Source of the DNA: Nocardia lijiangensis NBRC 108240
GTDB lineage: Bacteria > Actinomycetota > Actinomycetes > Mycobacteriales > Mycobacteriaceae
Length of the DNA: 64,000 nt
Assembly: GCF_001613045.1 (NCBI RefSeq)
Contig: NZ_BDBP01000027.1
Coordinates: 1 to 64,000 of the forward strand
Reading direction: 5' to 3'
This document shows positions 5,089-22,672 of the stretch, in pieces (position 1 is the stretch's first letter; the number at the start of each line of letters is the position of its first letter). The notes under the pieces are model-generated. The model did not search any database. It was not told the origin of the DNA and saw only the letters and a list, made by a program, of their open reading frames with translations. The position numbers were made by a program, and so were the translations under genes.

Positions 5089-5115
5089 ATCTATACCGAC
5101 GGGCTAGGTAGTCCT

Positions 5116-5365: not shown

Positions 5366-5662
5366 ATGATCTCGGCGTATCCCCCTGGGTTCCGGGAGTG
5401 TGCGGTCATGCTCATACGCGGCGGCGAGATTTCGATCCGGCAGCTGGCGCGGGCCCTGCCGGTCTCGGAGACGACATTGCGACGCTGGGCCGCTCCCGCA
5501 GTAGGTGAGGGCCACGGCTGTCGGCAGGCAAGTGCTTCCGGGGTAGGGGCTGAGGCCGAAGTGCTTCGGCTGCGACGTGAGGTACAGGCACTGCGCAGGG
5601 AGCGGGATGCGACGCGGGTGGCCGTGGCCAAGCTGGCGCGGGAAGTGGATCGGCCGACCTGA
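5366..5662 (+). CDS. IS3 OrfA-like HTH protein, orphan
   Basis: This 98-residue protein opens MISAYPPGFRECAVMLIRGG, followed by a helix-turn-helix (ISIRQLARALPVSETTLRRW). It ends in a heptad-rich Leu/Arg segment (EAEVLRLRREVQALRRERDA) typical of the leucine zipper of IS3-family OrfA. The start at 5366 is chosen because AAGGAG sits seven bases upstream; the earlier ATG at 5342 has no such site. No OrfB/DDE reading frame follows and I see no inverted repeats around it. It is either the remnant of an insertion sequence or a small DNA-binding protein kept next to the cas operon, about 270 bp before cas5. Functional status is uncertain. Confidence 0.6.
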   Translation: MISAYPPGFRECAVMLIRGGEISIRQLARALPVSETTLRRWAAPAVGEGHGCRQASASGVGAEAEVLRLRREVQALRRERDATRVAVAKLAREVDRPT

Positions 5663-5936
5663 ATCGAGCCAGACCGATGCCGGTCGCCAGTTCTCGTGGT
5701 ACTGGCTTCCCATGCAGGTCGGTACACCTGTGGCGTCTGGAGATGCCGGTTCAGGCTGGCCCGGAGTGGCCGCTCACTCCGGCATGTCCTCGATACGCGC
5801 GACGCTTCGCTGCGGGTCAGAAGTTGGATTCGGCCCGTTCTTGTCGGTGGTGTGGGGCATCATGCTTCGCGTCGTCTCTTGGTTCTGTATTGGGGCGCAG
5901 GGGTGTTCGGTCTGATTCGGATAGGAGGGGTGTTTT

Positions 5937-6560
5937 GTGCCAGTGGTGATTCAGGTGCGGGGGCCGGGGGCGTGTTTCACGCAGCCGGGGTTGTCGGCCG
6001 AGCGGGTGAGCTACCCGGTGATGACTCCGACGGCTGCGATGGGTGTGTTGAAGGCGGTGTACTGGAAGCCGGAGTTCGAGTATCGGATCGAGCGCATCGA
6101 AGTGCTGCGGCCGATCCGTCAGTTCACGTTGCGCCGTAACGAGACAACCGATGTCGTGTCGTTGGCCGAGGCGGTGACCGGCCAGCGGAGGGTGGATACC
6201 GCGGCGCATCGTGCGCAACGGAATGCCCTGTGCCTGAGGGATGTCGAGTATCGGATCCTGGCCCATATCGACCTGAATTCCCATGCTGACAAGCCGGAGG
6301 CGGCCTATCGCGATCAGTTCCGCCGTCGTGTGGCGAAGGGGCAGTGCTTCAGCCAGCCGTATCTGGGGACGCGTGAATTCGCAGCATATTTCGGTGAGGC
6401 GGATGATCGCCCGCCGATCGGTGTGTCCGCCGATCTGGGCATGGTGCTGCACAGTATCGACTATTCGACTACGCCGCGGCGGTCGCGGTGGTTCCGAGCC
6501 AGGCTCGACCGCGGGATCCTGCAGGTACCCCGACACGGCATCTCCGACGGGGAGGCGTGA
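5937..6560 (+). CDS. cas5c: Cas5c (Cas5d), crRNA-processing Cascade subunit
   Basis: This 207-residue type I-C Cas5 begins at GTG 5937 (MPVVIQVRGPGACFTQPG) and carries the characteristic SYPVMTPTAAMGVLKAVYW segment near residue 27. In subtype I-C, Cas5 replaces Cas6: it cleaves the repeat hairpin and stays bound to the 5' handle of the crRNA. It must therefore accept both stem variants seen in this locus, because no other processing nuclease is encoded in the window. The stop codon is immediately followed by the cas8c ATG, so the two are translationally coupled. The roughly 270-bp gap upstream probably contains the operon promoter. Confidence 0.95.
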   Translation: MPVVIQVRGPGACFTQPGLSAERVSYPVMTPTAAMGVLKAVYWKPEFEYRIERIEVLRPIRQFTLRRNETTDVVSLAEAVTGQRRVDTAAHRAQRNALCLRDVEYRILAHIDLNSHADKPEAAYRDQFRRRVAKGQCFSQPYLGTREFAAYFGEADDRPPIGVSADLGMVLHSIDYSTTPRRSRWFRARLDRGILQVPRHGISDGEA

Positions 6561-8426
6561 ATGCTGCTGGAACGTCTGGCCGCCTACGCCAACGACCATC
6601 GCGGTGCGGTGGCGCCGTTTCATCGTGACCGGGAGTTCCGGTGGAGCTTGGACATCCAGACTGACGGCGGCGTCGGGGTCCGGGCGGTGTCGCTGCTGCC
6701 GTTGCGAGATGTCGACAAGCCTCTGCGCGGTGTGGTGCATACGGTTCCCGCGGCGACCCGCACGGTCGGGGTTTCTGCGAACCTGGCAGCCGATGACGCC
6801 CAGTATGTGTTGGGGCGTGGTGACGAGAAGACCCATCCGTCCCGGGTGGCTCAGTGCCACGCGGCGTATGCGGATCTGATCCGGGCGTGGGCGGAGTCGG
6901 TTGCCTATGAGGAGGATCGGATCCCTCATGTGTTGGCCGCGTTCTACCGCGACGGCGGGTGTGAGCGTGTACCCGAGGTCGAGGGACTGCAGGCCAAGGA
7001 CGGTGTCCTCACCACCGTCGATGGTGGGCTGGCGCATCGCAGTACGAGCGCGGCTCGGTTCTGGTGCGATCGGGTGGCTTCGACGAAGGGCAGCGGTCGC
7101 AGCGGGCTGTGCCTGGTATGCCGTTTGGAGGCGCCGCTGGCGAACACCATCCCGGGGAAGGTTCCGGCCTCGCTGGTTCCGGGAGCCAGTAACGATGCCG
7201 CGCTGGTGAGTATCAACGAACGCAGCTTCGGCTACGACTTGACCACCCAGTTGACCCATACTCCGATCTGTATGACCTGTGCCGACGATGTGATGGTCGG
7301 ACTGACCGGGGCGCTGTCGTCGGAGCACACCAGGGCCTACAGCGGCCAGGACACCAGATTGGCGTGGTGGACCACTGGAACCAGCGAGTCGGACTACATG
7401 TCCTTGGTTTTCCAGCCGGACCCGCAGGACGTGAACGAGCTGTTCAGATCGCTACATACCGGTTCGCCGCCGGCGTCGGAACGTCTAGCTGGGCGGTTCT
7501 GCTGGCTGGCCGTTGGGGGGCATGTCGCCAGGATCATGGTTCGCGAGTGGGTCGACATGCCACTGGCCGCCGACGATCCCGACATCGTCAACCACGACGC
7601 CAACATCGCGGCCTGGTTCGCCGACCACGAGATCGTTCCCCGGCGCAGGGAAGCGTTCACCCTCCCCGACGGCACACAGGTCCCGGCCGGGCGGCGCTGG
7701 CACAGCGTGGGCGCGATGGCGGCAAGCCTCGGGCGATGGGATCCGGACCGCAACCGGTATCTGCCGTTCGTGGGGAAAAACTCCAAGAACTCCGGCCCGA
7801 ACCCTGACCGGCCCGACAGCGCGATGCGCCACATGCTCGACGTCGCCGTGCTCAATCGTCCGGTCCCGACGGCAATCCGCGCTCATTTGATCCACCGCGT
7901 CTGTAGCGACGGCCGCGTCGATGACGTGCGAGCGGCATTGATCCGTCTGAGCGCCACCCGCAGCCCTGACCGAAGGAGAACCATGTCCGTACCGATGGGT
8001 CTGGACGAATCCTGCACCGACCCCTCCTACGTCGCCGGACGTCTGTTCGCGGTGTTCGAACAGGTACAACGCGCCGCGCACCAACCGCCGCGAAAGAAGG
8101 GCGACAACAGCGAGGACACAGGAGATGAGAATTCGCGAACCTCGCTCAATTCGACCTATGCGGACAAGTACTTCCGCAGCGCGGTGACGAGCCCACGCCC
8201 GGCACTGATTCAGGGCCATCGATTGTCCTCGGCGTGGCTGAGCAAGATCCGCCGTCGCGACGGAGATGGCTTGGCGCACTGGCACAAGCAGCGTGTGGAG
8301 CAGCTGTGTCAGATCCTCGAGTGGCCGATCGGATGCCCATTGCGCAACGGGCTGCGGCAGCAGGAGTGGTTCGTCCTCGGCTACTACCACCAACTCGGCC
8401 ACTCCAGCAGCAAATCCGACAACTGA
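6561..8426 (+). CDS. cas8c: Cas8c (Csd1), large Cascade subunit
   Basis: At 621 residues, this is the expected large subunit of type I-C Cascade (Csd1 family), placed between cas5c and cas7c. The N-terminus (MLLERLAAYANDH) is family-typical. Two CxxC pairs (CLVC near residue 190 and CMTC near 234) could bind zinc. By family knowledge it recognises the PAM and the R-loop, and an internal start may yield a small-subunit Cas11c. A candidate in-frame ATG at 7983 follows AAGGAGAACC, an excellent ribosome binding site, and would give a C-terminal product of about 147 residues. That matches the Cas11c position and size known for other I-C systems. Confidence 0.95.
   Translation: MLLERLAAYANDHRGAVAPFHRDREFRWSLDIQTDGGVGVRAVSLLPLRDVDKPLRGVVHTVPAATRTVGVSANLAADDAQYVLGRGDEKTHPSRVAQCHAAYADLIRAWAESVAYEEDRIPHVLAAFYRDGGCERVPEVEGLQAKDGVLTTVDGGLAHRSTSAARFWCDRVASTKGSGRSGLCLVCRLEAPLANTIPGKVPASLVPGASNDAALVSINERSFGYDLTTQLTHTPICMTCADDVMVGLTGALSSEHTRAYSGQDTRLAWWTTGTSESDYMSLVFQPDPQDVNELFRSLHTGSPPASERLAGRFCWLAVGGHVARIMVREWVDMPLAADDPDIVNHDANIAAWFADHEIVPRRREAFTLPDGTQVPAGRRWHSVGAMAASLGRWDPDRNRYLPFVGKNSKNSGPNPDRPDSAMRHMLDVAVLNRPVPTAIRAHLIHRVCSDGRVDDVRAALIRLSATRSPDRRRTMSVPMGLDESCTDPSYVAGRLFAVFEQVQRAAHQPPRKKGDNSEDTGDENSRTSLNSTYADKYFRSAVTSPRPALIQGHRLSSAWLSKIRRRDGDGLAHWHKQRVEQLCQILEWPIGCPLRNGLRQQEWFVLGYYHQLGHSSSKSDN
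7983..8426 (+). CDS. cas11c: Probable internal Cas11c translated from within cas8c
   Basis: Inside cas8c, AAGGAGAACC directly precedes an in-frame ATG at 7983. Translation from it gives MSVPMGLDESCTDPSYVAGR and runs to the cas8c stop, 147 residues in all. Type I-C systems are known to make their small subunit Cas11c from an internal start in cas8c. The strong ribosome binding site in mid-gene is visible here; use of this start is inferred. Confidence 0.7.
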   Translation: MSVPMGLDESCTDPSYVAGRLFAVFEQVQRAAHQPPRKKGDNSEDTGDENSRTSLNSTYADKYFRSAVTSPRPALIQGHRLSSAWLSKIRRRDGDGLAHWHKQRVEQLCQILEWPIGCPLRNGLRQQEWFVLGYYHQLGHSSSKSDN

Positions 8427-8451
8427 CCTCACCTACCTGAAGGGGCCTGCA

Positions 8452-9345
8452 ATGACTACACCTGCGCATCTGAATCCCGCTGTGCGCCATGATCTGGTGT
8501 TTCTGTTCGACGTGACCGACGGCAATCCCAACGGTGATCCCGACGCGGGCAATCAGCCCCGCATGGACATCGAGTCCGGACACGGGCTGGTGACCGATGT
8601 GGCGTTGAAGCGAAAGATCCGTGACACCCTCGCACTGGCCGCCGCGGACAACCCGCGATACGGGATCTTCGTCGAAGCCGGTCACGCGTTGAACACGCGC
8701 CTGGCCGAGTCCTACACCGCCAACGGACTCAAACTCAAAGGCAAGCTCACCAAGGAGCAAGCCGACACAGCGCGACGGTGGTTGTGTGACCGCTACGCCG
8801 ACATCCGGTGGTTCGGTGCGGTCCTGTCCACCGGCGAGACCAACGCCCTCGGAAGTATCCGCGGTCCACTGCAATTCGGGATGGCCCGCTCCATCGATCC
8901 GATCCTGCCCGCGACACACGCCATCACCCGGGTTACCCAGACCCGCGAGGACGACATCGCTCGCGGTGAATCCACCGAGATGGGCTCGAAGTGGACGGTT
9001 CCGTATGCGCTGTACCGGGTCGAGATCAGCTACTCGGCCGCACGCGGCGCCCAAACCGGCGTCGACACCAAAGACTTCGAACTGCTGTATCAGGTGATGG
9101 AGATGATGTTCGACCACGACGCCTCCGCCGCCCGCGGCCGCATGACCGCCCGAGGACTGCATGTCTTCAGCCACGACAACACCTTCGGCAACGCCCCGGC
9201 CCAGAAACTCGTCGAACGCGTACGAGTGGTGCCTGCGGGCGATGCAGAGGAAGAGCGCAGCCCTCGACGGTTCAGCGACTACACCGTGACTGTCGACACC
9301 AACGACCTTCCCGAAGGCATCACCTATCACCAGGTCTTCAACTGA
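8452..9345 (+). CDS. cas7c: Cas7c (Csd2), Cascade backbone subunit
   Basis: This 297-residue Cas7 of the Csd2 type has the N-terminal LVFLFDVTDGNPNGDPDAGN motif near residue 15 and a conserved R-loop region ending GAVLSTGETNALGSIRGPLQ. Several copies coat the crRNA spacer in Cascade. The ATG at 8452 follows AAGGGG and lies 25 bp after cas8c. An upstream in-frame extension overlapping the end of cas8c is rejected because this start fits the family. cas4 follows after one base. Confidence 0.96.
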   Translation: MTTPAHLNPAVRHDLVFLFDVTDGNPNGDPDAGNQPRMDIESGHGLVTDVALKRKIRDTLALAAADNPRYGIFVEAGHALNTRLAESYTANGLKLKGKLTKEQADTARRWLCDRYADIRWFGAVLSTGETNALGSIRGPLQFGMARSIDPILPATHAITRVTQTREDDIARGESTEMGSKWTVPYALYRVEISYSAARGAQTGVDTKDFELLYQVMEMMFDHDASAARGRMTARGLHVFSHDNTFGNAPAQKLVERVRVVPAGDAEEERSPRRFSDYTVTVDTNDLPEGITYHQVFN

Positions 9346-9346
9346 C

Positions 9347-9978
9347 ATGCCTCTTGAGTCCGCTGCCGAGGAGCGGTGGAGCGTGCCGATCTCAGCTCTG
9401 GAACATCACGCCTACTGTCCTCGGCAAGCGGTACTCATTTGGCAGGAATCGTATTTCGAATCCAACGTCGACACCGTTCGCGGGGATCTAGCCCACGAAG
9501 CAGTCGACCGTGGCGGTGTGCTCACCGGACGGAACGGCGCGCGCATCTGGCGGTCGCTGCCCGTGCACAGCCAGCGCTTGGCGATCCACGGAATCTGCGA
9601 CACCGTGCACTGGACCGCCGAAGGGCCTGTACCCGTCGAACACAAGTCAGGGACCTACCGACCGGGTGGTCCTGCTGATCTCCAAGTCGCTGCACAGGTT
9701 CTATGCCTTCGGGAAATGTTCGACGACCGTGTGCCCCACGGAGAGATATTCGCTGGCCGGGATCGAAAACACCACATCGTAGTCGTCGATGACGAGATGG
9801 AATGCGCAGTACGGTCCGCTGTCGATGACCTTCGTCGGGCGGTTCTCGAGGGCACCGTGCCCAAGCCGGTCAACGATCGGCGCTGCCTTCGTTGCTCACT
9901 GCGCCCCGGCTGCATTCCAGAAACACACCCGCGGAGCGCGGTCGATCTCTTCACTCCGCGAGACTCGGGAGACTGTCC

Positions 9979-9982
<4 letters not shown>
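9347..9982 (+). CDS. cas4: Cas4 adaptation exonuclease
   Basis: This 211-residue RecB-like nuclease has the expected four Fe-S cysteines: one near residue 28 (YCPRQAV) and three clustered near 187-196 (CLRCSLRPGC). The nuclease core includes GICDTVHW and VPVEHKSGTYRP, where the E-x-K motif provides catalytic residues. In type I-C, Cas4 partners with Cas1-Cas2 to select PAM-containing prespacers and trim them. The gene overlaps cas1 by four bases, in line with a joint adaptation module. Confidence 0.95.
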
Positions 9983-11285
<1,303 letters not shown>

Positions 11286-11430
11286 GCGGTGTCGAGTCGC
11301 TTCGGAACCCCAGGTGCGACCGAATTCCCTGGAAGGTTCCGCAGTACCGACCTGGGTGAACAGACACCCACCAACGGCGCACCACACACCAAAACTGGAG
11401 CGTGCGGACAACACCGCAGGTCATCCAGGG
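11286..11430 (+). promoter_or_regulatory. Leader of array 2
   Basis: The 145 bp between the cas2 stop and the first repeat share an ordered set of blocks with the sequence before array 3. These are TTCGGAACC, then a GTGCG-GA segment, then a TTCC-GG-GGTTCCG block, then a GGG-AGAC block. Conserved leader sequence marks the integration side, so the newest spacers of array 2 should be at 11467 onward. Confidence 0.7.
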
Positions 11431-13735
11431 CAGCGCCGAGCCTCCGGGCTCGGCGAGAATCTCAACGAATGTCCAGAGACGTCCGCGAAAACCCTCGCGG
11501 AGCAGCGCCGAGCCTCCGGGCTCGGCGAGAATCTCAACACCACGATCATGGCGGCCAACCACAACGCCTACAAGGTGCAGCGCCGAGCCTCCGGGCTCGG
11601 CGAGAATCTCAACATCGGCTACGTCAACGGCGCGTACAAGTCCTCCGGAGGCAGCGCCGAGCCTCCGGGCTCGGCGAGAATCTCAACGATGCCGGGTGTG
11701 TGCCACCCATGGGTGTGAATCCAGGCAGCGCCGAGCCTCCGGGCTCGGCGAGAATCTCAACCCGCCCGATCAGGTCCGCCAGATCGCCTCGATCGCACAG
11801 GCAGCGCCGAGCCTCCGGGCTCGGCGAGAATCTCAACAGGGTGATCAGTCGCCGTATCGCCTCCACCTGACGCAGGGCAGCGCCGAGCCTCCGGGCTCGG
11901 CGAGAATCTCAACGTCCTCGGTAGGGGTGGTGTGCTCAGGGGTGGAGGCAGCGCCGAGCCTCCGGGCTCGGCGAGAATCTCAACAATCACGGGCGCGATC
12001 AGAGGACCGGCCAGGTCCCCAGCAGCGCCGAGCCTCCGGGCTCGGCGAGAATCTCAACTGTATCTGAACTCGATGTTCTTCGGGGTGCCGCAGTCGGCAG
12101 CGCCGAGCCTCCGGGCTCGGCGAGAATCTCAACCGCCGTGAACACCCCGAACTGGCCCGCGCCTACACGCAGCGCCGAGCCTCCGGGCTCGGCGAGAATC
12201 TCAACTTTCAGTACTCCTGCGAACAGGCCCATGCCCGGGGGGCAGCGCCGAGCCTCCGGGCTCGGCGAGAATCTCAACACGCCCCCCACGGACACCAACT
12301 ACCGAAAGGAAAAGCAGCGCCGAGCCTCCGGGCTCGGCGAGAATCTCAACCCAGTCGGACGACAAATGACACAGGGGTCACCCCCACGCAGCGCCGAGCC
12401 TCCGGGCTCGGCGAGAATCTCAACTGGACCATCTACGGCGCGCTGCTGTTCGCAGCGGCGTGGCAGCGCCGAGCCTCCGGGCTCGGCGAGAATCTCAACG
12501 GCAGCTGCTGGGACTTCTGCACACACTAGGGGGCAGCGCCGAGCCTCCGGGCTCGGCGAGAATCTCAACGTGCTGCTGACGCCGAGGTGGACGCCTTGAT
12601 GGGGAGGCAGCGCCGAGCCTCCGGGCTCGGCGAGAATCTCAACCAATGGGCGGAATGGTGCTGGGCTATCGCGACGGCTGGCAGCGCCGAGCCTCCGGGC
12701 TCGGCGAGAATCTCAACACAGTCGGAGGTGCAGGACGAGATCTGCTCGCGGCAGCAGCGCCGAGCCTCCGGGCTCGGCGAGAATCTCAACGCCTCGGCGC
12801 GCACGGCGTCGAGCTGGGCGCGCAGCTGACAGCGCCGAGCCTCCGGGCTCGGCGAGAATCTCAACATCGGATGGGACAAGTACCAACCGACTCGCGAGCA
12901 AGCAGCGCCGAGCCTCCGGGCTCGGCGAGAATCTCAACAGTTGACCAATACGTTCGGCGTCAGCACTCAAGTGCGGGCAGCGCCGAGCCTCCGGGCTCGG
13001 CGAGAATCTCAACGGTCACCGGTGCGACGACCTCGACCGGCAGGGGTGCGGGCAGCGCCGAGCCTCCGGGCTCGGCGAGAATCTCAACTTGTATGTGCCC
13101 ACCCCGTCACCGAACTGGCAGCGGCAGCGCCGAGCCTCCGGGCTCGGCGAGAATCTCAACCGCTTCGGCGATCTTCTAGAGCTGGCCGGTAAAGGGCAGC
13201 GCCGAGCCTCCGGGCTCGGCGAGAATCTCAACATTTCCACCCCGTCGCCCTGGCGCATCCGCTCGAGCAGCGCCGAGCCTCCGGGCTCGGCGAGAATCTC
13301 AACTATGGTCCCCGCGGGGTGGGGCGGGTGCGTGAGAGCAGCGCCGAGCCTCCGGGCTCGGCGAGAATCTCAACTTCTCACCAGCGCGGACTATGTACTT
13401 GGCCGCGTGCAGCGCCGAGCCTCCGGGCTCGGCGAGAATCTCAACACGTCGCGGAACGTGATCGGATTCCAGGTGGGGTCGCAGCGCCGAGCCTCCGGGC
13501 TCGGCGAGAATCTCAACAGGTTGGTCTGGGCGGTGCCGAAGCTGCCGAGTGTGGCAGCGCCGAGCCTCCGGGCTCGGCGAGAATCTCAACGCGAGCTGGC
13601 CGGGCTTAACCCATGTCGTGTCCACGCAGCGCCGAGCCTCCGGGCTCGGCGAGAATCTCAACCTTCTCTAGCGCGGAGATGACTTGCCGCACCTGGACGC
13701 AGCGCCGAGCCTCCGGGCTCGGCGAGAATCTCAAC
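11431..13735 (+). CRISPR. CRISPR array 2 (GAGCC-stem repeat, 32 repeats)
   Basis: I count 32 repeats of 36 nt (37 with the usual leading G) and 31 spacers of about 34-39 nt. The repeat reads CAGC, then the stem GCCGAGCC-TCC-GGGCTCGGC, then GAGAATCTCAAC. It is essentially invariant from first to last repeat, apart from one A for G in the leading base before 12830. Such uniformity and the adjacent leader and cas2 indicate the active array. It differs from arrays 1 and 3 by a GA-to-AG change in the left stem, matched by the complementary change in the right stem. Confidence 0.98.
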
Positions 13736-13947
13736 TCCAAGTTCGTCGAGAAGCTGCGGGCGGATCGGCCGTTCCCCGGGTGATGCCAGGGGTCGGATCG
13801 AAGTCAGGGTGTCGGCTGTACGGCAGGAAGGTTCCTCTGATCTGTGTACGCAACCGGTAACTCGGCGTTGGCGCAGGCGATGATCCGCTGTGTCGGGTGG
13901 GAGAATGGCACTCACGACTCCTCGCCCATATCAGGAGGGACTAGCCG

Positions 13948-14931
13948 ATGACGGCGCACAGTGCGGCCCACCCAGCCGCCGCCCCTGCCGGGGATCGGCC
14001 TGCGCCACATCGACTTCGGTGGCGCGACCTGCCTGATCGCGTGCGAGCAGCGGCATTGGGCCAGTGGGGTACTGACGTTGCGTCGGAGATGTCCATGGCC
14101 GGTGGGTATTCACCTGGTGTGGCGTCTCGGCTGGAGTTGCAGGATGGGCGGCGGCTGTTCGTGAAGGCGATCAGTGGGAGTCGGAATTCTCGGGCGCCGG
14201 GATTGTATCGGCGGGAGATCGAGGTGATGGCGGCTCTGCCTGCCGCGGCGCCTGCGCCGCGTTTGCAGTGGTCCTACGACGACGGCGACTGGGTGATGCT
14301 GGCCCTCGATGATGTCGACGGCCGTATGCCCGGCACACCGTGGCAGCCCCGAGACCTCACCTGCGCGATGACCGCGCTCGAACTGATGGCTGCGACGTTG
14401 ACCCCGGCACCGACCACCGCGATGCCGATCGCTGATGATCTGGACGAGAATTTCCGTTCGTGGGCGAGAATCGCGGCCGCCGCGGACCTTGCCGCGCGGG
14501 TAAATCCCTGGGCGCGTACCCATCTGGCTCGGTTGGTCGATCTCGAAACAGACTGGGCCAACGCAGCCTGCGGCGAGACGTTGCTGCATGCGGACCTGCG
14601 TGGCGACAACATGTTGCTGACGACCAACGGCCAAGTGGTCGTGGTGGACTGGCCCTACGCGGTGCTCGGCGCGGCGTGGGTCGACGGGTTGTTGTTTCTG
14701 CCGTCGGTGCCCGCCGACGGTGGCCCGACAGACCTCGAAGCCCTCTGGCTTGGATACGCACCGGGCCGGGCGGCCGACCCGGACGCGGTGAATGCGGTCC
14801 TGGCGGCGCTGGCGGGTGACTTCACGCTGCAGTCGCTGCTGCCGCCGCCGGACAACATTCCGACCCTACGTGCGCACCAGGCAGCGAAGGCTTCTGCGGC
14901 ACTGTCGTGGCTGCGGGCGAGGCTCAGCTGA
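13948..14931 (+). CDS. APH/choline-kinase-fold phosphotransferase
   Basis: This 327-residue protein kinase-like phosphotransferase of the aminoglycoside phosphotransferase family has the catalytic loop LLHADLRGDNMLL near residue 213 and a metal-binding VVVDWPYA near 230 (DW in place of DFG, common in this family). The ATG at 13948 follows AGGAGGGAC. Family members phosphorylate small molecules such as aminoglycosides, choline, homoserine or biosynthetic intermediates. Its 3' end overlaps the convergent second kinase by eight bases. It sits beside an amidinotransferase and a hydroxylase, so a role in making, or protecting against, a guanidino or amino-sugar-like product is plausible. The substrate is unknown. 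Confidence 0.8.
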   Translation: MTAHSAAHPAAAPAGDRPAPHRLRWRDLPDRVRAAALGQWGTDVASEMSMAGGYSPGVASRLELQDGRRLFVKAISGSRNSRAPGLYRREIEVMAALPAAAPAPRLQWSYDDGDWVMLALDDVDGRMPGTPWQPRDLTCAMTALELMAATLTPAPTTAMPIADDLDENFRSWARIAAAADLAARVNPWARTHLARLVDLETDWANAACGETLLHADLRGDNMLLTTNGQVVVVDWPYAVLGAAWVDGLLFLPSVPADGGPTDLEALWLGYAPGRAADPDAVNAVLAALAGDFTLQSLLPPPDNIPTLRAHQAAKASAALSWLRARLS

Positions 14932-15880
14932 TCGTTCCGAAATCACGTAACCCACTCAGCCCCAGTCGAATTAGAAAGGCTGTCTCGGTGTTGCGGTTGT
15001 CGTGGTGGTGCCATTCGGCGAGGGCGCCGAGCATCTCCATTGCCGCGGCGGCCCGGGTGAACACGGTCAGCGCCGTCCGTTCACGGTCATCGAGCGGAGC
15101 AACGGCGGTCCGAGAGTAGAGCTCGGCGATCCGGTCGGCGCGCTGGGGGAGCGGGTCGGTGTCGCCGTGGGTGAGGTTGGCGGCCACCATCGCGAGTTCC
15201 TGGATCCGGGGCGCGCGGATGGCGACGGCGAAGTCGAGCAGGGTCACCTGTCCGTCGGGTTCGATGAGGATGTTGCCTTTGGTGAGGTCGCCATGGATGA
15301 GTGCGTGCGGTAGCCCGGCCATGTCGATCGCAGCGAGCTGGTCGACGGCGGCGGTGACGTGGTGGCGCTGTTCGTCGTCGAGGACATCGGATAATTCGGC
15401 CGCGAGGCGGTTCAGGTTCGTGACCGCCCAGGGGTCGGCCACAGGGCTCGGGTGCAGGGCGAGGGAATGGATGCGGGCTGCGTCGGCGAGCACGGCGAAC
15501 AGTTCGGCGTCTGACGGTGCACGACTGTGGTCGTAGAGCGTGGTGCCGACGACCATGTCCATGACGAGTATCTGGTGGCCAGGAAGGTGGAATTCATGGA
15601 CGCCAGTTCTGGTGTGGTGTAGGCGCGGGTGTCGAACTCCAGCCCGGCGGGCGGCGGTGATCAGCGTCGCAGTGCGGGCGGCGATGCCGGGAGGTCGGGT
15701 GGGGCCGAACACCTTGATCACCACCGCCCCGGACGCGCTGGTCTCGGCGGCGATATTGCAGTCCTCATAGCCGGTGCTGAGCACGCGCCAGTCGGTGAGG
15801 TCACCGAGTTGGTAGGCATGGGCGATTTCGGCCAGCAGACCGGGCAGGTCAGCGGTGATGCGGGTGGTCGGGCTGGTCAT
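14924..15880 (-). CDS. APH-fold phosphotransferase, last gene of the minus-strand operon
   Basis: This is a second kinase of the same fold, 318 residues, with the catalytic loop LIHGDLTKGNILIEP near residue 195 and VTLLDFAVA near 212. The start is ATG 15880, which overlaps the stop of the amidinotransferase/LysRS-like fusion by four bases (ATGA), so the two proteins are co-translated. An ORF extending further upstream in this frame (to 16630) runs antisense-like through the fusion gene and is rejected. It is clearly diverged from the kinase at 13948. The coupling suggests that it acts on the product or intermediate of the fusion enzyme, or activates the guanidinylated compound; the reaction itself is not predictable. 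Confidence 0.8.
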   Translation of the reverse strand: MTSPTTRITADLPGLLAEIAHAYQLGDLTDWRVLSTGYEDCNIAAETSASGAVVIKVFGPTRPPGIAARTATLITAARRAGVRHPRLHHTRTGVHEFHLPGHQILVMDMVVGTTLYDHSRAPSDAELFAVLADAARIHSLALHPSPVADPWAVTNLNRLAAELSDVLDDEQRHHVTAAVDQLAAIDMAGLPHALIHGDLTKGNILIEPDGQVTLLDFAVAIRAPRIQELAMVAANLTHGDTDPLPQRADRIAELYSRTAVAPLDDRERTALTVFTRAAAAMEMLGALAEWHHHDNRNTETAFLIRLGLSGLRDFGTIS

Positions 15881-18030
15881 GTGCGCGGCAGGGGAAACGG
15901 GATGATCGCTGCGAGGTCGGCGCTGCCGGTCAAGGTGAGCAGCAGCCGTTCGAGGCCAATGCACAGCCCACCCGCCGGGGGCATCCCGCTGCCGAACACC
16001 TCTAGCCAGTCGTCGTCGAGCGTGGCGGCCTCGCTGGGCAGGATCCGGTCGCCGTCCGGCGCGAGTCTGCGGCGCAGCTCGACGGCGTCGTCGAGTTCGG
16101 TGTAGGCGGTGGCGATCTCGCGGCCACCGATGACCAGATCCCACTTCTGAGCCAGCCTCGGGTTGCGCGGGTGAGTGTGGGCCAACGGGGAGTGCCCGGC
16201 CGGGAAGTCGACGTGCAGGGTGGGCGTGACCACCGTCGGTTCGACCAGCCGGTCGTAGAGCTCGAGAGCGATCTCGTCGGCATCGGCGCCGGTCCGCACC
16301 GGCACCGCGCATCGGTGGGCGACATCTCGCAGCACGCAGGCTGGGGTATCGGTGGTTATCGACTGGCCGACTGCGGCGGTGAGTGCGGTGTAGAACGGGC
16401 GCACAGTCCATTCGGCAGCCAGGTCGACCTCGGTCCCGTCCGAGATGCGGATGACGGTGGTGCCCAGGGCGGCGCGGGCTGCGGTGGTGATGAGTTCGTG
16501 GGCCAGTGCGCGCAGGCTGTGGTAGTCCGCTTCGACCTGATAGAGCTCGACCAAGCTGTATTCCGGGGCGTGGGTGGCGTCGGCGGGCTCGTCGCGGAAG
16601 CTGCGGCCGATCTCGAACACGCGGGGCCACACGGTCACTGCGGCGCGTAGGTGCAGTGGGGAGGACCGCAGGTACAGGTGCGGGCCGACCGCGTCGGTGA
16701 GCGTGCGGAACGACCTGCCGGGAGCGGGCCTGGCGCGTTGCAGCAGTGGGGTATCGACCTCGACGTGGCCGCAGTCGTGGAGCGTCGACCGTAATGCCTG
16801 CACCACGCGTGAGCGCGCCTCGAGGCCGCTACGCGCAGCAGGATCTACACGCAGCCGCACGAACCTCTCGGCCAGCGATTGCCCGGGCACCTCGATGCCG
16901 GCGGTGCCTGAATCACCGCTGGCTGCCGGTGGCGACGCGGTGCGGCGCAGATCGAGTGTGACGCAGTGGATTCCGCCGCCGAGAGCACGGGAGTGGCGCA
17001 GGGTGTGCGGGATGACCCCGACGCCGCGACGCTCCAGCGCACCGATGAGATTGCGCTGGCTGGCGTCGACGATGGCGAGGTCGGGGCGCACCATGAGCAG
17101 GTTCATGCCGATCCACTCCGATGACAGCGGGTGTGGTGCGGTCACGGCCGTCGGCGCCATTGGTGGGCACCACAGGAGTTCACGGTCGCGCAGAGGGAAA
17201 GGCAGCTGGTCGAGATCGGTGATGCGGGCGGGGTTGACCAGCACCAGGTCCTCACGGATCAGGCTGATTGTGGAGTCGAGATGGGTTCCTGCGTACACAC
17301 CATGGATCGGATGCACGCGGTGCCCGCCGCCGAGAGCGTCCAGGGTGGTCTGCAGCCAGCGCAGGCCGAGTTCGTTGCCGGATCCAGACACCAAGTAGTA
17401 CAGATTCTGTCCGTCGCGCAGCACGTTGGCGGCCTCGAAAGCGGGCTCGGTATCGCCGAGTGTCGGGCGCCCGTCGGCATCGAGCGGATACAGCTCATCG
17501 GCCAGCTGCGGGACCGGCGCGGACAGCCACGTGGATCCGGCCAGCATCTTGGCCTGGAACAGCCCACGCAGCCCGCTCAGTTCGTGCGCGCGGGCACGCA
17601 TGGGGCTCGGGGTGGCGAGGATGGTCGATCCGACGATGAGTGCCAGGTCGCGTGGGCAGTAGGAGTAGAAGCCGGTCGAACGCCAATGGGGGGTGGCGAA
17701 CTCGGCGGCGTGATCGATCGGTGCCGGACGGTGCACCCTGACGCCGAGCCCGGACAGCAGTTGGGCAAGCGTGTCGAGGTCTTCGGTGGTCTCGGAAAGC
17801 ATGCGCGCGGGGAACGCACCGGCGCGAACCGCGGCCAGTTCGGTGGGTGACAGGTCCGGGTAGAGGTTCAGCCACGCCGACCGGTCCATCGGATCGGGGA
17901 TCCGCGCGTCGGCGGCGACGCCGATGACCACTTCGGTCAGTGGGGAGAACTCATCGTGCGAGCACGTGGGCAGCTCGGCCGGCGTCGCGTCGGCGGCGGA
18001 CTTCACGGCGGCAAGTGTGTTGAGCGACAT
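15877..18030 (-). CDS. Amidinotransferase fused to class II LysRS-like domain
   Basis: This is a 717-residue two-domain enzyme. Residues about 20-375 are an arginine:X amidinotransferase of the AGAT/StrB1 family. GTHLDSTISLI (about 260) supplies the His-x-Asp pair, and RALGGGIHCVTLDLRR (about 358) carries the catalytic Cys in the family-typical GGG-x-HC context. Residues about 400-717 match the catalytic core of class II lysyl-tRNA synthetase/EpmA (GenX). Motif 2 is RVFEIGRSFRDEP followed by HAPEYSLVELYQ, and motif 3 is GGLCIGLERLLLTLTG. No anticodon-binding OB domain is present, so an amino-acid-activating ligase is more likely than a tRNA synthetase. Both active sites look complete. The gene lies 36 bp after the hydroxylase and is coupled to a kinase. 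I do not recognise a described protein with this fusion. Confidence 0.88.
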   Translation of the reverse strand: MSLNTLAAVKSAADATPAELPTCSHDEFSPLTEVVIGVAADARIPDPMDRSAWLNLYPDLSPTELAAVRAGAFPARMLSETTEDLDTLAQLLSGLGVRVHRPAPIDHAAEFATPHWRSTGFYSYCPRDLALIVGSTILATPSPMRARAHELSGLRGLFQAKMLAGSTWLSAPVPQLADELYPLDADGRPTLGDTEPAFEAANVLRDGQNLYYLVSGSGNELGLRWLQTTLDALGGGHRVHPIHGVYAGTHLDSTISLIREDLVLVNPARITDLDQLPFPLRDRELLWCPPMAPTAVTAPHPLSSEWIGMNLLMVRPDLAIVDASQRNLIGALERRGVGVIPHTLRHSRALGGGIHCVTLDLRRTASPPAASGDSGTAGIEVPGQSLAERFVRLRVDPAARSGLEARSRVVQALRSTLHDCGHVEVDTPLLQRARPAPGRSFRTLTDAVGPHLYLRSSPLHLRAAVTVWPRVFEIGRSFRDEPADATHAPEYSLVELYQVEADYHSLRALAHELITTAARAALGTTVIRISDGTEVDLAAEWTVRPFYTALTAAVGQSITTDTPACVLRDVAHRCAVPVRTGADADEIALELYDRLVEPTVVTPTLHVDFPAGHSPLAHTHPRNPRLAQKWDLVIGGREIATAYTELDDAVELRRRLAPDGDRILPSEAATLDDDWLEVFGSGMPPAGGLCIGLERLLLTLTGSADLAAIIPFPLPRT

Positions 18031-18066
18031 CAGGTTTCGGGTCTTTCTCTCGAAGTGCGTGTCGGG

Positions 18067-19026
18067 TCAGGAGATGGTGCGCAGCGCTCGGCGTCGGCGG
18101 TGCGCGCGCACGGACGCGCAGGTCATCACCCGCAGCAGCCACCGGTCGGCGCCGTCGTAGCAAGGCTGGAATCGGGTGCGCCCGTGCACCACCCGACGGT
18201 TGTCGGCCAACAGAAGCTCACCCGGGCGAAGTTCGTGACCGAGCGCGGCCATGTCGATCGCGAGCGCCAGAGCAGCCAGCGCGTCGGCGGCGGCGCGGTC
18301 GGTGGGGTCGGCGGGTCTCTGATAGATCGCGTCGTAGCAGATCTCGGGGTCGGACGGGTCGCCGGAGAGCACCGGCATAGGGACGATGTCGCTGAGCGTG
18401 GGTAGCCCATGTGCCAGATCCGGCACAACGACGAACCGCGGCTGGCGCAGCACAACCGTGACCCTGTCATCGAGGGCCAGGTTGCGTGCGGGGGCAAGAA
18501 TCGTCGATGCGCCGAGATCACCACGCAGGCACAGCAATCCGAAGTAGTCGCAGCGAGCGTCGTGGAAGGCGTCTTCGACGTGCCAGTCCAGGTTTGCGCT
18601 GCCTTCGCTGGTCTGGGCGGCCTCCCGGCCGCGCACGGGGACGATGTGCTGCACCACGCGGCCTTCGTAGAGGTTGGCGAAGGTGAAGGCTTCACCGAGC
18701 ACACTGGTCACTGCGAGCAAAGTCAGCGCCGCCGCGTCGATGACAGCCGGACCCGGCGGCGGGGTCGTCGTCGCCGGAGTCGGCGGCAGCGTCGGCAACG
18801 CGGGCAGCAGGCCGCGCACGAGCATCGCGTTGTTCGTTGAACCGGTACTGCGGTAGCGATGCAGTGCCACGACCACGGCTCCAGGAAGCATCGTGACCAG
18901 CTCTGCAGCGTGGTCTATCGGGTCGCCGCCCCGCTCGACCAGCACCAATGCGGCACGATGAATACGTGCAGCGTCGGGGCAAGCGAGTTCGATGATTTCG
19001 GCGGGTGCAAGATGATGGTCGCGCAT
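18067..19026 (-). CDS. VioC-like Fe(II)/2-oxoglutarate amino-acid hydroxylase
   Basis: This 319-residue oxygenase is of the clavaminate synthase-like group that includes the arginine hydroxylases VioC and OrfP. The His-x-Glu of the facial triad lies in DWHVEDAFHDARCDYFGLL (about 159). The distal His is in LADNRRVVHGRTRF (about 283), with the 2-oxoglutarate-binding Arg in RWLLRVM. These enzymes hydroxylate free amino acids, usually arginine, at carbon 3 or 4. The start at ATG 19026 has a strong AAGGAGG site. It is the first gene of a three-gene minus operon with the fusion enzyme and a kinase, and is divergent from the XRE/PDF gene. Arginine or a relative as substrate is an inference from the family and from the amidinotransferase next door. 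Confidence 0.85.
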   Translation of the reverse strand: MRDHHLAPAEIIELACPDAARIHRAALVLVERGGDPIDHAAELVTMLPGAVVVALHRYRSTGSTNNAMLVRGLLPALPTLPPTPATTTPPPGPAVIDAAALTLLAVTSVLGEAFTFANLYEGRVVQHIVPVRGREAAQTSEGSANLDWHVEDAFHDARCDYFGLLCLRGDLGASTILAPARNLALDDRVTVVLRQPRFVVVPDLAHGLPTLSDIVPMPVLSGDPSDPEICYDAIYQRPADPTDRAAADALAALALAIDMAALGHELRPGELLLADNRRVVHGRTRFQPCYDGADRWLLRVMTCASVRAHRRRRALRTIS

Positions 19027-19109
19027 CAGACCTCCTTGACAACGATCCTCGGACGGGCGAGGGGCCCAGACACATCCATTTCCTCAGGCATGCAGGGTGT
19101 TTCGTCAGA

Positions 19110-19137
19110 GTGAGCGCATACTCACGGTGTACTCACG
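19110..19137. promoter_or_regulatory. Candidate operator between the hydroxylase and XRE/PDF genes
   Basis: In the 142-bp divergent gap, TACTCACG occurs twice as direct repeats spaced exactly 11 bp (19119 and 19130). The first overlaps an inverted repeat GTGAG-N6-CTCAC (19110-19125). Spacing by one helical turn suits cooperative binding. The obvious ligand is the XRE domain of the protein encoded at 19169. Confidence 0.5.
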
Positions 19138-19168
19138 CACACGCACACCCGGACAGGAGCGTTTGACA

Positions 19169-20674
19169 GTGACCCAGGCCGACATGCCGCTTCACCACGA
19201 CCCGGCGGCCGCGCAGAACAACGTCTTCGCGGCCGAGCTGCGCCACTGGCGCGATGTCCGGAGCCTGTCACTGACCGCGCTGGCCACGAAGCTCGGCTAC
19301 AGCCGCCCGTACGTTTCCAAGATCGAGTCCGGCGCCGAGAACCCCTCACGTCAGTTCGCCGCCCACGCCGATGCAACGCTGCAAGCCGGCGGCGCACTGC
19401 GCGCCGCCTACGCGGAGTTCAGCGCGCACCGCTCGGCCGCGGTGCGCGCACCTGTTGCTGTCGAGTCGTACGACTCGATCAGGTCGCTGGTCGTCGATCA
19501 CGACGATGCGAGCCTGTCCTTCGACGGGCACATCTACCGGCTCAGGCAAAGGCGACGTTTGATCAACGGCGGGTCCGAGCCGATCACCCGCTACCTGATC
19601 AGGATCTCGGTGGACCGCTACCCCGGCGATCCCGAACGATCCAACCAGCTCTACCAGGAAAACCCGTTGACCTGGGAGGAGATCGGACTGCACGCCTGGT
19701 ACGGCGAGGATCGCAGCGAGCCGATGGCTTGGGCTGCCCACCACGACCGTGACGCATTCAAAGAGGTCTGGCTGCAGTTCAGCGAACCCGAAGGCGGGCG
19801 GCGCTTCCCGTTGTACCCGGGCCAGTCCTGCTGGATCGACTACGAGTACACCGTCTCGGAGACCCACTGGGGGAACTGGTTTCAACGCGCAGTCCGTCTA
19901 CCCACCAACCGCTTGTCCGTGCGGTTGGACTTCCCGACCGAACTCGAACCGACGGTCTGGGGACTGCAGACATCGATGACCGCGGAAGGCCAGCCGTTCC
20001 GCACCCCGATTTCCCACCAGATCAGCGACGGCCGACACCAGTACTCCTGGTCCACCGACAACCCACCGCTGCACGCACGGTACCGCCTCGAATGGGACTT
20101 CCGCGGCCGTAGCGACGACGAACGCACCCCGCCGAGCAAAGTCATGGCAGGCCTGGGCATCGTCCAGGAGGGCGAGGAGATCCTGCGGCAGGTCGCGCGC
20201 CCGTTCGACCTGCCTACCGAGGCCGAAGACGCGCGTCGTGTTGTCGCCGAACTGAATTCGGCCGCCGAACGCGTTGCCCAAGCCCACGTGTTCGGTAAGG
20301 GAATGGGTGTGGCGGCACCTCAGATCGGTATCGGCAGGGCCGCCGCGATCGTGCGCACCCCCGACGGGGACACCATCACCCTGTTCAACCCGCGCATCGT
20401 GGAATCCGGTGCGGTCGAAGACGAACAGTACGAAGGATGTTTGTCGTTCTTCGACCTGCGTGGACGTGTGCCGCGCGCCTTGTCGATCACTGTCGAACAC
20501 ACCGACATCGACGGCAACACCCACATCACCGAGTTCGAACGAGGGGTGGCGCGCCTGGTCGCCCACGAGGTGGACCACCTGCATGGAAAGCTCTACCTCG
20601 ATCACATGCGCCCCGGAGCCGAACCCATACCTGTCGAGCAGTACCGAGCCACGGGCAAGAACTGGACCTACTGA
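19169..20674 (+). CDS. XRE regulator fused to peptide deformylase
   Basis: This 501-residue protein starts at GTG 19169 (GGAG eleven bases upstream). Residues about 22-75 form an XRE helix-turn-helix (LSLTALATKLGYSRPYVSKIE). Residues about 100-330 are a beta-rich, Trp-rich module of unknown role. Residues about 335-490 are a peptide deformylase with all three signatures: GKGMGVAAPQIG, YEGCLSF and LVAHEVDHLHGKLY (metal Cys and two His, catalytic Glu). PDF removes the formyl group from nascent proteins. A regulator-fused PDF in a biosynthetic context could sense or survive a PDF inhibitor, or deformylate a product. It is divergent from the hydroxylase operon and probably controls it through the repeats at 19110-19137. 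Confidence 0.85.
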   Translation: MTQADMPLHHDPAAAQNNVFAAELRHWRDVRSLSLTALATKLGYSRPYVSKIESGAENPSRQFAAHADATLQAGGALRAAYAEFSAHRSAAVRAPVAVESYDSIRSLVVDHDDASLSFDGHIYRLRQRRRLINGGSEPITRYLIRISVDRYPGDPERSNQLYQENPLTWEEIGLHAWYGEDRSEPMAWAAHHDRDAFKEVWLQFSEPEGGRRFPLYPGQSCWIDYEYTVSETHWGNWFQRAVRLPTNRLSVRLDFPTELEPTVWGLQTSMTAEGQPFRTPISHQISDGRHQYSWSTDNPPLHARYRLEWDFRGRSDDERTPPSKVMAGLGIVQEGEEILRQVARPFDLPTEAEDARRVVAELNSAAERVAQAHVFGKGMGVAAPQIGIGRAAAIVRTPDGDTITLFNPRIVESGAVEDEQYEGCLSFFDLRGRVPRALSITVEHTDIDGNTHITEFERGVARLVAHEVDHLHGKLYLDHMRPGAEPIPVEQYRATGKNWTY

Positions 20675-21199: not shown

Positions 21200-21349
21200 G
21201 TTCCGGGTTGTGTGTTCGGTTCGGAACCTGGGGTGCGGCTGAAGTTCCAGGAGGGTTCCGAGCTGGCGACGTGGGCAGACCTCGTCGGCGAGTTGTCTTT
21301 GACGTATCGGTGTACTGTCTCGCGGAGCATAACTGCAGCTCATGTAGGG
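21200..21349 (+). promoter_or_regulatory. Leader of array 3
   Basis: The blocks TTCGGAACC, GGTGCGGCTGAAGTTCC, GGAGGGTTCCGAG and GGGCAGACC occur in the same order as in the leader of array 2 (11286-11430). Array 3 therefore kept a leader although it carries the other repeat variant and has no cas genes beside it. Confidence 0.65.
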
Positions 21350-21971
21350 CAGCGCCGGACCTCCGGGTCCGGCGAGAATCTCAACGAAAATCCCTCGGGG
21401 GTTATTGGATATCGCGGACGGCCAGCAGCGCCGGACCTCCGGGTCCGGCGAGAATCTCAACTGTCTCTTTCGGCCGTACCCGTCAAGGTAGAGGCCGCAG
21501 CGCCGGACCTCCGGGTCCGGCGAGAATCTCAACCTCACCCTTCGAGGCGATCAATGCGTGACCTCCGTCGCAGCGCCGGACCTCCGGGTCCGGCGAGAAT
21601 CTCAACGTGGCCTGGGCGCCGCGCGCGGTCGCCTACGTGTCGCAGCGCCGGACCTCCGGGTCCGGCGAGAATCTCAACAACGTCAGGTAGCGCGCTTAGA
21701 ACGGCAGCTGACCGGCAGCGCCGGACCTGCGGGTCCGGCGAGAATCTCAACGAGCCTGCGGATCTCGTCCGGGCAGCGCGCGCCGCCGGCAGCGCCGGAT
21801 CTCCGGGTCCGGCGAGAATCTCAACGGTTTCGCAGATCGCGATGGCGTCGAGTGTGTCGCGGCAGCGTCGGGCCTTCGGGTCCGGCGAGAGTCTCAACCG
21901 GCCGGAGTGTCGGGTCGGCAATCGCGTCTTCGAGGCAGCGCGAGATCTCCGGGCGCAGAGAGAATTCTCGG
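21350..21971 (+). CRISPR. CRISPR array 3 (GGACC-stem repeat, 9 units)
   Basis: Units begin at about 21350, 21426, 21498, 21571, 21643, 21716, 21790, 21863 and 21936. The first five are perfect copies of the array 1 repeat. Later units accumulate changes, and the last is badly decayed (CAGCGCGAGATCTCCGGGCG). The last spacer (CGGAGT-N2-CGGGT-N9-CGTC-N-TCGAGG) is recognisably the same as the last spacer of array 1. The array has a leader but no adjacent cas genes, so it depends on the cas locus 8 kb upstream. Confidence 0.94.
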
Positions 21972-22058
21972 TATTCATGGTGATGGGCGCGCAGCACCAT
22001 CGAGGGTGGCGCTTCCTCGGCTGACGGAGGTCTCGACTGTTGACTTCGTTTGGAACCT
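21970..22058. repeat. Array 3 trailer, homologous to the array 1 trailer
   Basis: GTATTCATGGTG, then GCTTCCTCGG, CTGACGGAGG and TTGACTTCGTTTGGAACCT parallel the sequence after array 1. The similarity stops at about 22058, exactly where the first, 5'-truncated repeat of array 4 begins, which marks a recombination junction. Confidence 0.7.
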
Positions 22059-22672
22059 CGCCGAGCCTCCGGGCTCGGCGAGAATCTCAACAAACCGCAA
22101 GGGGCGCAACCGATCCCAGGCCGCGCGGCAGCGCCGAGCCTCCGGGCTCGGCGAGAATCTCAACGCCACCGAAACCGAGGTCGACGGCGATCCCGGCTAT
22201 AGCAGCGCCGAGCCTTGGGGCTCGGCGAGAATCTCAACTGGCAACAGGGATGGGCACCGGCACTCGAGCGCCTCGGCAGCGCCGAGCCTTGGGGCTCGGC
22301 GAGAATCTCAACGACAGGTAGATCGGTGCGTGCGTCCGCAGCAAAGGTGCAGCGCCGAGCCTCCGGCTCGGCAAGAATCTCAACGCCCAGCTGATCCGGC
22401 TGCTGATGACCGAGATGCTAGCGCCGAGCCTCCGGGCTCGGCGAGAATCTCAACCAGGACAGCCAGGACGTCGTCGGCGGCCGCCATCGCGCAGCGCCGA
22501 GCCTCCAGGCTCGGCGAGAATCTCAACGGCATGATGAACAGCTGCAGGAACTGGTCACCGGGCAGCGCCGAGCCTCCGGGCTCGGCGAGAGTCTCAACAG
22601 GCTCGGAAACTACGCTCACATCGAAGGCGGGGACGGCAGCGCCGAGTCTCCGGGCTCGGCGAGAATCTCAAC
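22056..22672 (+). CRISPR. CRISPR array 4 (GAGCC-stem repeat, 9 units, no leader)
   Basis: Nine repeats start near 22056, 22129, 22203, 22277, 22350, 22419, 22492, 22563 and 22637. The first lacks its GCAG start and is fused to the trailer of array 3. Units 3 and 4 share a CCTTGGGG loop variant, unit 5 has lost a loop base, and units 6 to 9 carry single changes. Apart from the variants these are array 2-type repeats. With no leader, the array cannot acquire spacers in the usual way. The shared variant of units 3 and 4 points to a local duplication or gene conversion. Confidence 0.93.

Follow-up and report, generated by a model that had tools for sequence, protein, structure and literature searches.

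A conserved four-gene cassette with an amidinotransferase–lysyl-tRNA synthetase core fusion in Nocardia as a candidate plasmid-type mini-pathway

What does a compact group of enzyme genes near the start of a Nocardia contig make, and does it form a unit at all? The stretch of DNA analysed (the window) comprises the first 64 kb of a 99.8-kb contig of Nocardia lijiangensis NBRC 108240 (NZ_BDBP01000027.1). The genes in question (13948-19026) encode an Fe(II)/2-oxoglutarate amino-acid hydroxylase, an amidinotransferase fused to a catalytic core of the class II lysyl-tRNA synthetase (LysRS) type, and two APH-type kinases, KinA and KinB (Table 1). They are followed by a gene whose product joins an XRE helix-turn-helix (HTH) domain to a peptide deformylase. 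An earlier note, made from the letters alone, had described these five genes as one biosynthetic-type cluster. All of its coordinates were confirmed, and so was its layout, in which the hydroxylase, the fusion and KinB are encoded by a tight codirectional operon (36-nt gap, then 4-nt overlap), KinA converges on this operon (tail-to-tail overlap of 8 nt with KinB) and the XRE-deformylase gene diverges from it. We see about an even chance that 13948-19026 is a mobile, plasmid-type mini-pathway that would produce a hydroxylated, guanidinylated and phosphorylated lysine-like amino acid and would activate and ligate it without tRNA.

The earlier note had named an unconserved neighbourhood as grounds for refutation; compared across genera, the enzyme set that it singled out proved to be conserved. 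The genes for the hydroxylase, the fusion, KinB and the convergent KinA were recovered in identical order on the linear plasmid NZ_CP091380 of Amycolatopsis sp. FU40, at protein identities of 60%, 67–69%, 58% and 64%, respectively. The relative of the fusion is full-length there, and the 8-base overlap of the kinase stops is common to both loci. BLASTN comparison of the whole window with a 26.5-kb region of this plasmid (L073; E ≤ 1e-3) yielded a single block (14097-18910, 69%), so that the likeness of the DNA stops within the cassette at both sides. The ratios of non-synonymous to synonymous substitution rates (dN/dS) were 0.43, 0.30, 0.42 and 0.24 for the four genes, rough values because they were obtained by the NG86 method from one pair of loci with dS of 0.83–1.16; on these figures, all four genes look to be under constraint. 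On the Saccharopolyspora pogona plasmid NZ_CP031144, a remnant comprising the LysRS half, KinB and KinA is retained; its amidinotransferase has lost the first part, shows a frame change and is overlapped in part by an annotated recombinase gene, and no hydroxylase was found beside it. KinA is conserved on both plasmids and thus at all three carriers. KinB matched only these two among 72,556 plasmid records (E ≤ 1e-5); within the genus, its sole match among 148 genomes was to the genome of the window itself (E ≤ 1e-15). The four genes are a real conserved unit, and their grouping is beyond chance because all four enzymes are encoded together again, arranged alike, on the Amycolatopsis plasmid, with dN/dS values in the range given above. 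The window also encodes Cas proteins of a type I-C system of clustered regularly interspaced short palindromic repeats (CRISPR), a conjugation coupling protein, a phage-type integrase and an ISL3 transposase, and these genes give it the look of a plasmid or integrative element.

Domain matches were taken from Pfam and equivalog scores from NCBIfam (bits against the model cut-off); catalytic motifs, which are intact in all four cassette enzymes, were read by eye from alignments. The amidinotransferase half of the fusion found its top-scoring solved structure in inosamine-phosphate amidinotransferase (1bwd, E 6e-94). Amidinotransferases of this superfamily use a Cys, a His and acidic residues for catalysis, and those of the fusion resemble the residues of StrB1, with a Glu in place of a StrB1 Asp, as in relatives too. 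In a tree of amidinotransferases, the domain of the window groups with that of the Amycolatopsis fusion and with the Nocardia proteins paired with a hydroxylase (13 rows, SH-aLRT 99), and StrB1 falls outside a 33-row clade (SH-aLRT 99); this was a quick tree of 67 rows with a long-branch warning, which contains the window twice (once more as L031) and omits 19 loci judged to be repeats, three window copies, the partial L030 and the broken L074. A streptomycin-type pathway was rejected, as the tree sets StrB1 apart. The hydroxylase scored highest with the GntD model (209 bits, cut-off 345) and second with VioC (162 bits, cut-off 418.6). Its HxE...H iron triad is intact, and the second aspartate of VioC-type enzymes is missing ('ydaiy' against 'vdgdf' in the alignment). 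Judged by these scores, it shares the fold family of VioC but is not the VioC equivalog. KinA has intact HADLRxDN and VDW motifs. The best family models for KinB, homoserine kinase thrB_alt (56.6 bits, cut-off 255.9) and the PRK06148 family, stayed far under their cut-offs, and a single-sequence AlphaFold model of KinB with a predicted local distance difference test (pLDDT) score of 41 was not used.

The C-terminal half of the fusion matches LysRS cores (tRNA-synt_2, 7e-50). No OB anticodon domain was matched in the fusion, residues 1–385 of which are taken up by the amidinotransferase and a linker. Three fusions were aligned with E. coli LysU and EpmA, a chromosomal LysX and two LysS proteins. 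In all three fusions, motif 2 retains its Arg, Glu and His, and the Glu at LysU position 279, a later pocket Glu and the motif 3 region are likewise kept; the Glu at LysU position 241, present in LysU, EpmA, LysX and both LysS, is deleted in all three, and the GG loop near this site is altered. From LysU structures, we take the first Glu (LysU 241) to face the alpha-amino group and the others to face the side-chain amine. The fusion cores form a separate clade on a long branch (support 99/98) in a tree of 24 rows that carries a long-branch warning, contains the window twice (again as L031) and omits five loci, namely three window copies and two copies of included loci. The possibility of a normal second LysRS was dismissed on account of the missing anticodon domain and the separate clade.

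A comparable pairing exists within the genus: in seven Nocardia genomes, out of 26 with an amidinotransferase match among 150, a different amidinotransferase adjoins a LysRS-like core (L033 type, Table 1). This core begins at most 0.1 kb from the amidinotransferase gene, which leaves no room for an OB domain. The L033 neighbours include JmjC_2, DUF3865 and desaturase matches (Pfam), and similar ones were found at L034 (BLAST clusters). Since both halves lie in other clades than those of the fusion, as the differing neighbours also suggest, the pairing of an amidinotransferase with a truncated synthetase seems to have arisen twice, on the reading of two trees that both carry long-branch warnings.

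The first two enzymes of the cassette also travel without the rest. Genes in the genomes of relatives were called with a simple GC-frame script. Relatives of the amidinotransferase half with 67–69% identity were found in seven other genomes of the 150 from the genus (L044-L050), all seven with a hydroxylase (55–60%) directly upstream. Within a broader set of 15 loci, the hydroxylase is adjacent at seven, four of which are the same DNA as four of L044-L050; at the loci of family f15, inspected with 1.5-kb flanks, a hydroxylase was present at 5 of 19 and a KinB homologue at 2 of 19. The hydroxylase–amidinotransferase pair is a wider actinobacterial module. KinB homologues precede this type of amidinotransferase at two loci of one genome; the KinB alignment includes two loci of genome G897 twice (L084/L097 and L093/L098). 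At L097, KinB and the amidinotransferase share a single 891-codon frame without an intervening stop, in which an internal ATG follows a purine-rich stretch; the two parts may be translated separately, or the frame may reflect an assembly error. At the same locus (7569-14142), these two are followed by genes for a GntA-like guanidine N-hydroxylase (143.7 bits, cut-off 145), a hydroxylase and, below their cut-offs, SbnA- and SbnB-like proteins that would make diaminopropionate (Dap), and the locus is probably an N-hydroxyguanidine pathway. Loci L099-L102 carry an ornithine carbamoyltransferase-like gene in four of four cases and an EctB-like gene in three (not found in the L102 stretch). The earlier note had proposed phosphorylation for protection; the position of KinB homologues beside this amidinotransferase type in one further genome would fit a pathway step better than resistance alone. 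As a separate observation, at L019 and L029 the hydroxylase–amidinotransferase pair lies near a condensation-domain protein (detected by family search at L019, a similar protein at L029); another hydroxylase from that family is also nearby, in the style of nonribosomal-peptide clusters.

The pathway proposed here builds on observed genes, domains, motifs, conserved gene order and constraint; its substrates, the order of its steps, the ligation and its role are inferred. Enzymes of the StrB1 and AmtA types usually take the amidino group from arginine. The amidinotransferase domain would transfer the amidino group of L-arginine to the side-chain amine of a diamino acid supplied by the host, yielding a homoarginine-type product; lysine would be the likeliest acceptor, since ornithine only regenerates arginine and the cassette contains no synthase for Dap or diaminobutyrate (Dab). 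The hydroxylase would add a hydroxyl group to that amino acid, before or after amidino transfer, and KinB, acting as a hydroxy-amino-acid-type kinase, would phosphorylate this hydroxyl. The fused LysRS core would adenylate the basic amino acid at its carboxylate, with no tRNA involved, and transfer to an amine would give an amide or small conjugate. KinA might then add a second phosphate or serve in self-protection, and the product would be a diffusible antimetabolite of the arginine/lysine type. The general logic of the earlier note (hydroxylation, transfer of an amidino group, activation, phosphorylation) agrees with the domains. Arginine as the substrate of the hydroxylase is doubtful, given that the second VioC-type aspartate is missing and that arginine normally serves this class of amidinotransferases as the donor.

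Several points weigh against this pathway. The fusion is rare: apart from the window's own genome, the only one of 396 from the phylum in which it was detected (E ≤ 1e-75), it was found in none of the remaining 395, in none of 354 genomes from family f15, which belongs to the same order and may be Pseudonocardiaceae (E ≤ 1e-85; the 19 matches listed are all confined to the amidinotransferase half), and in 2 of 72,556 plasmid records, one of them with a broken copy. The pair formed by its first two enzymes is not universal, as 8 of the 15 loci in the broader set have no adjacent hydroxylase and 14 of the 19 loci in family f15 show none beside the amidinotransferase. Other Nocardia pairs come without a kinase or synthetase core in the stretches examined, from which it follows that the last three steps (those of KinB, the LysRS core and KinA) are not needed for the first two. 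With the Glu at LysU position 241 lost, the enzyme could be a weakened one, or its substrate could be one that lacks a normal alpha-amino group. The acceptor in relatives may be Dap or Dab, lysine being the likeliest for a cassette this short, and the cassette itself holds neither an exporter nor a pathway regulator.

Other explanations call on the same features. If the genes served plasmid maintenance or competition, a toxin-like metabolite would harm plasmid-free or neighbouring cells and one of the kinases would be an immunity factor. The carriers suit this idea, two of them being plasmid records and the third a contig on which conjugation, CRISPR and integrase genes occur; KinA, convergent and apart from the operon, is conserved on all three, and agrocin 84 provides a plasmid-borne precedent. 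KinA homologues of about 40% identity, however, occur on other plasmids, and the one neighbourhood of these that was examined lacks the cassette. We hold this explanation to be unlikely, and it describes a role that is compatible with the proposed pathway rather than a mechanism of its own. A resistance or detoxification function, by which the kinases, with or without the other enzymes, would modify an incoming antibiotic or toxic amino-acid analogue, draws on the membership of both kinases in the APH family, which includes antibiotic kinases, and on the plasmid-like setting. It is rendered rather improbable by the presence of amidino transfer, amino-acid hydroxylation and a synthetase core, which are typical of synthesis, and by the occurrence of the same hydroxylase and amidinotransferase types elsewhere near genes for Dap-synthase-like, Dab-aminotransferase-like, carbamoyltransferase or condensation-domain proteins.

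A similarly low probability is assigned to protein or tRNA modification, in which an EpmA-like LysRS core would attach a hydroxylated, guanidinylated lysine-type residue on which the kinases then act. EpmA (325 residues in the alignment) lacks an OB domain. Its model matches the core of the fusion, at 138 bits against a cut-off of 286.9, and EpmA shares the motif 2 residues, but it retains the Glu that is deleted in the fusions. The hydroxylase, moreover, belongs to the VioC/GntD/AsnO family, which acts on free amino acids, both kinases are of the small-molecule type, and the cassette contains no EpmB or EF-P gene. Chance assembly of separate, unrelated operons might be suspected from the opposite orientation of KinA and from the independence of the XRE-deformylase gene. 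For the four-gene cassette, this idea is contradicted by another genus, in which the genes, their order, the fusion and the 8-bp overlap of the stops are all alike, and we regard it as scarcely credible for the locus; it holds for the XRE-deformylase gene only.

That gene lies outside the conserved cassette: it was not found on either cassette plasmid, where a single weak HTH match was the only one obtained. Its inclusion in the pathway by the earlier note could not be upheld, as it is absent from both cassette plasmids and stands beside other operons elsewhere. Plasmid neighbourhoods were sampled at 16 loci (H23-H28, H30-H37, H39 and H40) among the 20 records listed of 816 matched, and operon kinds were assigned by hand from the record annotation. 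At 13 of the 16, the XRE-deformylase gene, or a split pair, diverges from a small-molecule enzyme operon. About nine kinds were distinguished: radical SAM with creatininase and sulfotransferase; dTDP-sugar dehydratase with ATP-grasp protein and aminotransferase; two versions of 7-deazapurine genes; two kinds of glycosyltransferase sets; methyltransferase with AMP ligase and ketosynthase; D-Ala-D-Ala ligase; and racemase with nonribosomal peptide synthetase (NRPS). At H31, an insertion sequence separates the gene from the operon, and at H24, H37 and H39 the gene is not divergent from such an operon. On the downstream side of the same 13 loci, the first gene encodes an enzyme of this sort once (H26, aldo/keto reductase); at H33, enzymes are present further downstream. 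Within the genus, matches were obtained in 20 of 148 genomes (E ≤ 1e-80), 15 near full length including the window's own and five without the deformylase half. Judged by eye on script gene calls, the 14 other full-length cases comprise seven neighbourhoods of the radical-SAM type, four of the sugar-dehydratase type, one decarboxylase-like and two without such an operon. At L139 (4289-9426, or 5575-10712 when numbered on the reverse strand), genes for a PLP-decarboxylase-like and a methyltransferase-like protein diverge from another Nocardia XRE-deformylase gene, and farther out lies a protein that reads, by eye, as an arginyl-tRNA synthetase. Because it diverges from so many different enzyme operons, the XRE-deformylase protein looks like a portable, pathway-independent regulator that partners swappable operons, with the cassette of the window as one cargo. 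It offers a simple search handle for further plasmid-borne mini-pathways, and it raises the question why a peptide deformylase is fused to the regulator of such operons.

The five-gene block sits between two CRISPR arrays of the type I-C system, a point absent from the earlier note. The repeats in the three arrays of the window fall into two main variants, distinguished by paired changes in the stem (GAGCC/GGCTC against GGACC/GGTCC); both variants are present, arranged blockwise, in the second array (21349-22672). On two Streptomyces plasmids (L124, 9021-13452; L127, 9481-12936), type I-E cas genes follow the XRE-deformylase gene, and in the window the type I-C system (2710-13735) flanks the region of the XRE-deformylase gene and the cassette. 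A plasmid mini-pathway together with CRISPR-Cas is a recurring neighbourhood, seen on two Streptomyces plasmids and in the window. An anti-phage defence function, prompted by the CRISPR setting, was considered and rejected. PADLOC models (E ≤ 0.01) matched none of KinA, the fusion and the hydroxylase; they gave only weak kinase-core matches to KinB and, for the XRE-deformylase protein, matches to the HTH region. In addition, the similarity to the Amycolatopsis plasmid at the DNA level ends within the cassette. A phage origin was likewise discarded: no phage record covers 80% of the fusion, and two IMG/VR loci match its amidinotransferase at 38–39% only.

Taken further, and more tentatively, these findings make it possible that the amidinotransferase half of the fusion builds a guanidino (homoarginine-type) amino acid and that the remodelled LysRS half, which would no longer hold a normal alpha-amino group but keeps an acidic side-chain pocket, activates it without tRNA so that an amide is formed. 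The cassette would then be one of many swappable plasmid mini-pathways (7-deazapurine, NRPS, sugar, radical-SAM) under one portable XRE-deformylase regulator, three of them beside plasmid CRISPR-Cas.

Table 1. Positions of the genes, domains and arrays discussed. Coordinates refer to the window unless a locus is named.
Feature	Position	Strand	Details
Third CRISPR array	1774-2320		
CRISPR array, type I-C system	11430..13735	+	stops 0.2 kb ahead of KinA
KinA, APH-type phosphotransferase	13948..14931	+	327 aa; Pfam APH 3e-12; converges on KinB
KinB, APH-type kinase	14924..15880	-	318 aa; APH 5e-16; third operon gene
Amidinotransferase–LysRS-core fusion	15877..18030	-	717 aa
Class II LysRS catalytic core without OB anticodon domain	15883..16875	-	residues 386-716; (A/S)PE-motif Glu deleted
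Amidinotransferase domain, StrB1-like	16933..17961	-	residues 24-366; catalytic D/E, H, C kept
Fe(II)/2-oxoglutarate amino-acid hydroxylase (GntD/VioC/AsnO family)	18067..19026	-	319 aa; first operon gene
Intergenic stretch between operon and XRE-deformylase gene	19027..19096		from gene coordinates; likely promoter/operator region
XRE HTH, middle domain of no recognised family, peptide deformylase	19097..20674	+	525 aa; start codon uncertain
Second CRISPR array, mixed repeat variants	21349..22672	+	0.7 kb past XRE-deformylase gene
Other amidinotransferase and LysRS-like core pairing	L033 5640-11299		also L034, L054, L056, L058, L070, L071
XRE-deformylase loci of the window and of actinobacterial plasmids	window 19097-20674; L094-L096, L115-L127		

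Does the cassette belong to a known system? Within the open-access literature searched, no paper was found that describes a fused amidinotransferase and tRNA-synthetase core or that combines an amidinotransferase, a lysyl-tRNA synthetase and a biosynthetic gene cluster, and across the collections searched the fusion was seen in three places only at the thresholds used. Within the scope of this search the domain fusion is new and the cassette was not found described, and for every known pathway considered, membership breaks down at a feature that was compared. From the fusion one would expect a ligase for guanidino amino acids that works without tRNA, and from only four genes a new small metabolite.

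In agrocin 84, AgnA is described as a truncated homologue of an asparaginyl-tRNA synthetase (AsnRS)-type enzyme without anticodon domain, encoded in a 17-gene operon on the conjugal plasmid pAgK84 (PMC4392301). The likeness lies in a small antimetabolite pathway on a plasmid, a biosynthetic role that for the cassette is predicted, and in a synthetase catalytic domain without anticodon domain. The cassette differs by a core that is of LysRS type and fused to an amidinotransferase, by its four genes and by the absence of nucleotide chemistry; it contains no AsnRS-type AgnA, no second synthetase such as the self-immune leucyl-tRNA synthetase (AgnB2) and no nucleotide-forming agn genes. Agrocin 84 thereby provides the closest analogy for how the cassette would work, but the cassette does not belong to that system, because its synthetase is of another class and its genes are others.

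For guanitoxin, GntI is reported to phosphorylate a hydroxyl on a guanidine, in a pathway that begins at arginine and passes through a cyclic guanidine by means of other enzymes (PMC10673588). The cassette resembles it in that the best family model of its hydroxylase is GntD. Membership fails, with the hydroxylase below the GntD cut-off and with no GntA, GntC, GntE, GntF or GntG in the cassette; to our knowledge, the guanitoxin pathway includes neither an amidinotransferase nor a synthetase core. StrB1 of the streptomycin pathway has similar catalytic residues, but it falls outside the clade of the fusion, and the cassette contains no cyclitol genes. Phaseolotoxin synthesis combines the Arg:Lys amidinotransferase AmtA with an L-amino acid ligase that accepts homoarginine, as described in PMC3927611. 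The pathway proposed for the cassette parallels it in amidino transfer from Arg to Lys and in ATP-dependent ligation of a homoarginine-type amino acid on the way to an antimetabolite, whereas the phaseolotoxin cluster is larger. We know of no synthetase core in the phaseolotoxin ligase and of no fusion to the amidinotransferase.

EpmA, LysX and LysS have the class II LysRS core and the Glu at LysU position 279 in common with the fusion cores, which nevertheless form a long-branch clade of their own and lack a Glu that those proteins keep. The L033-type pairing in Nocardia brings the same two activities side by side, in other clades and with other neighbours. A truncated synthetase has apparently been joined to amidinotransferases twice, and the chemical logic of this union is worth solving.

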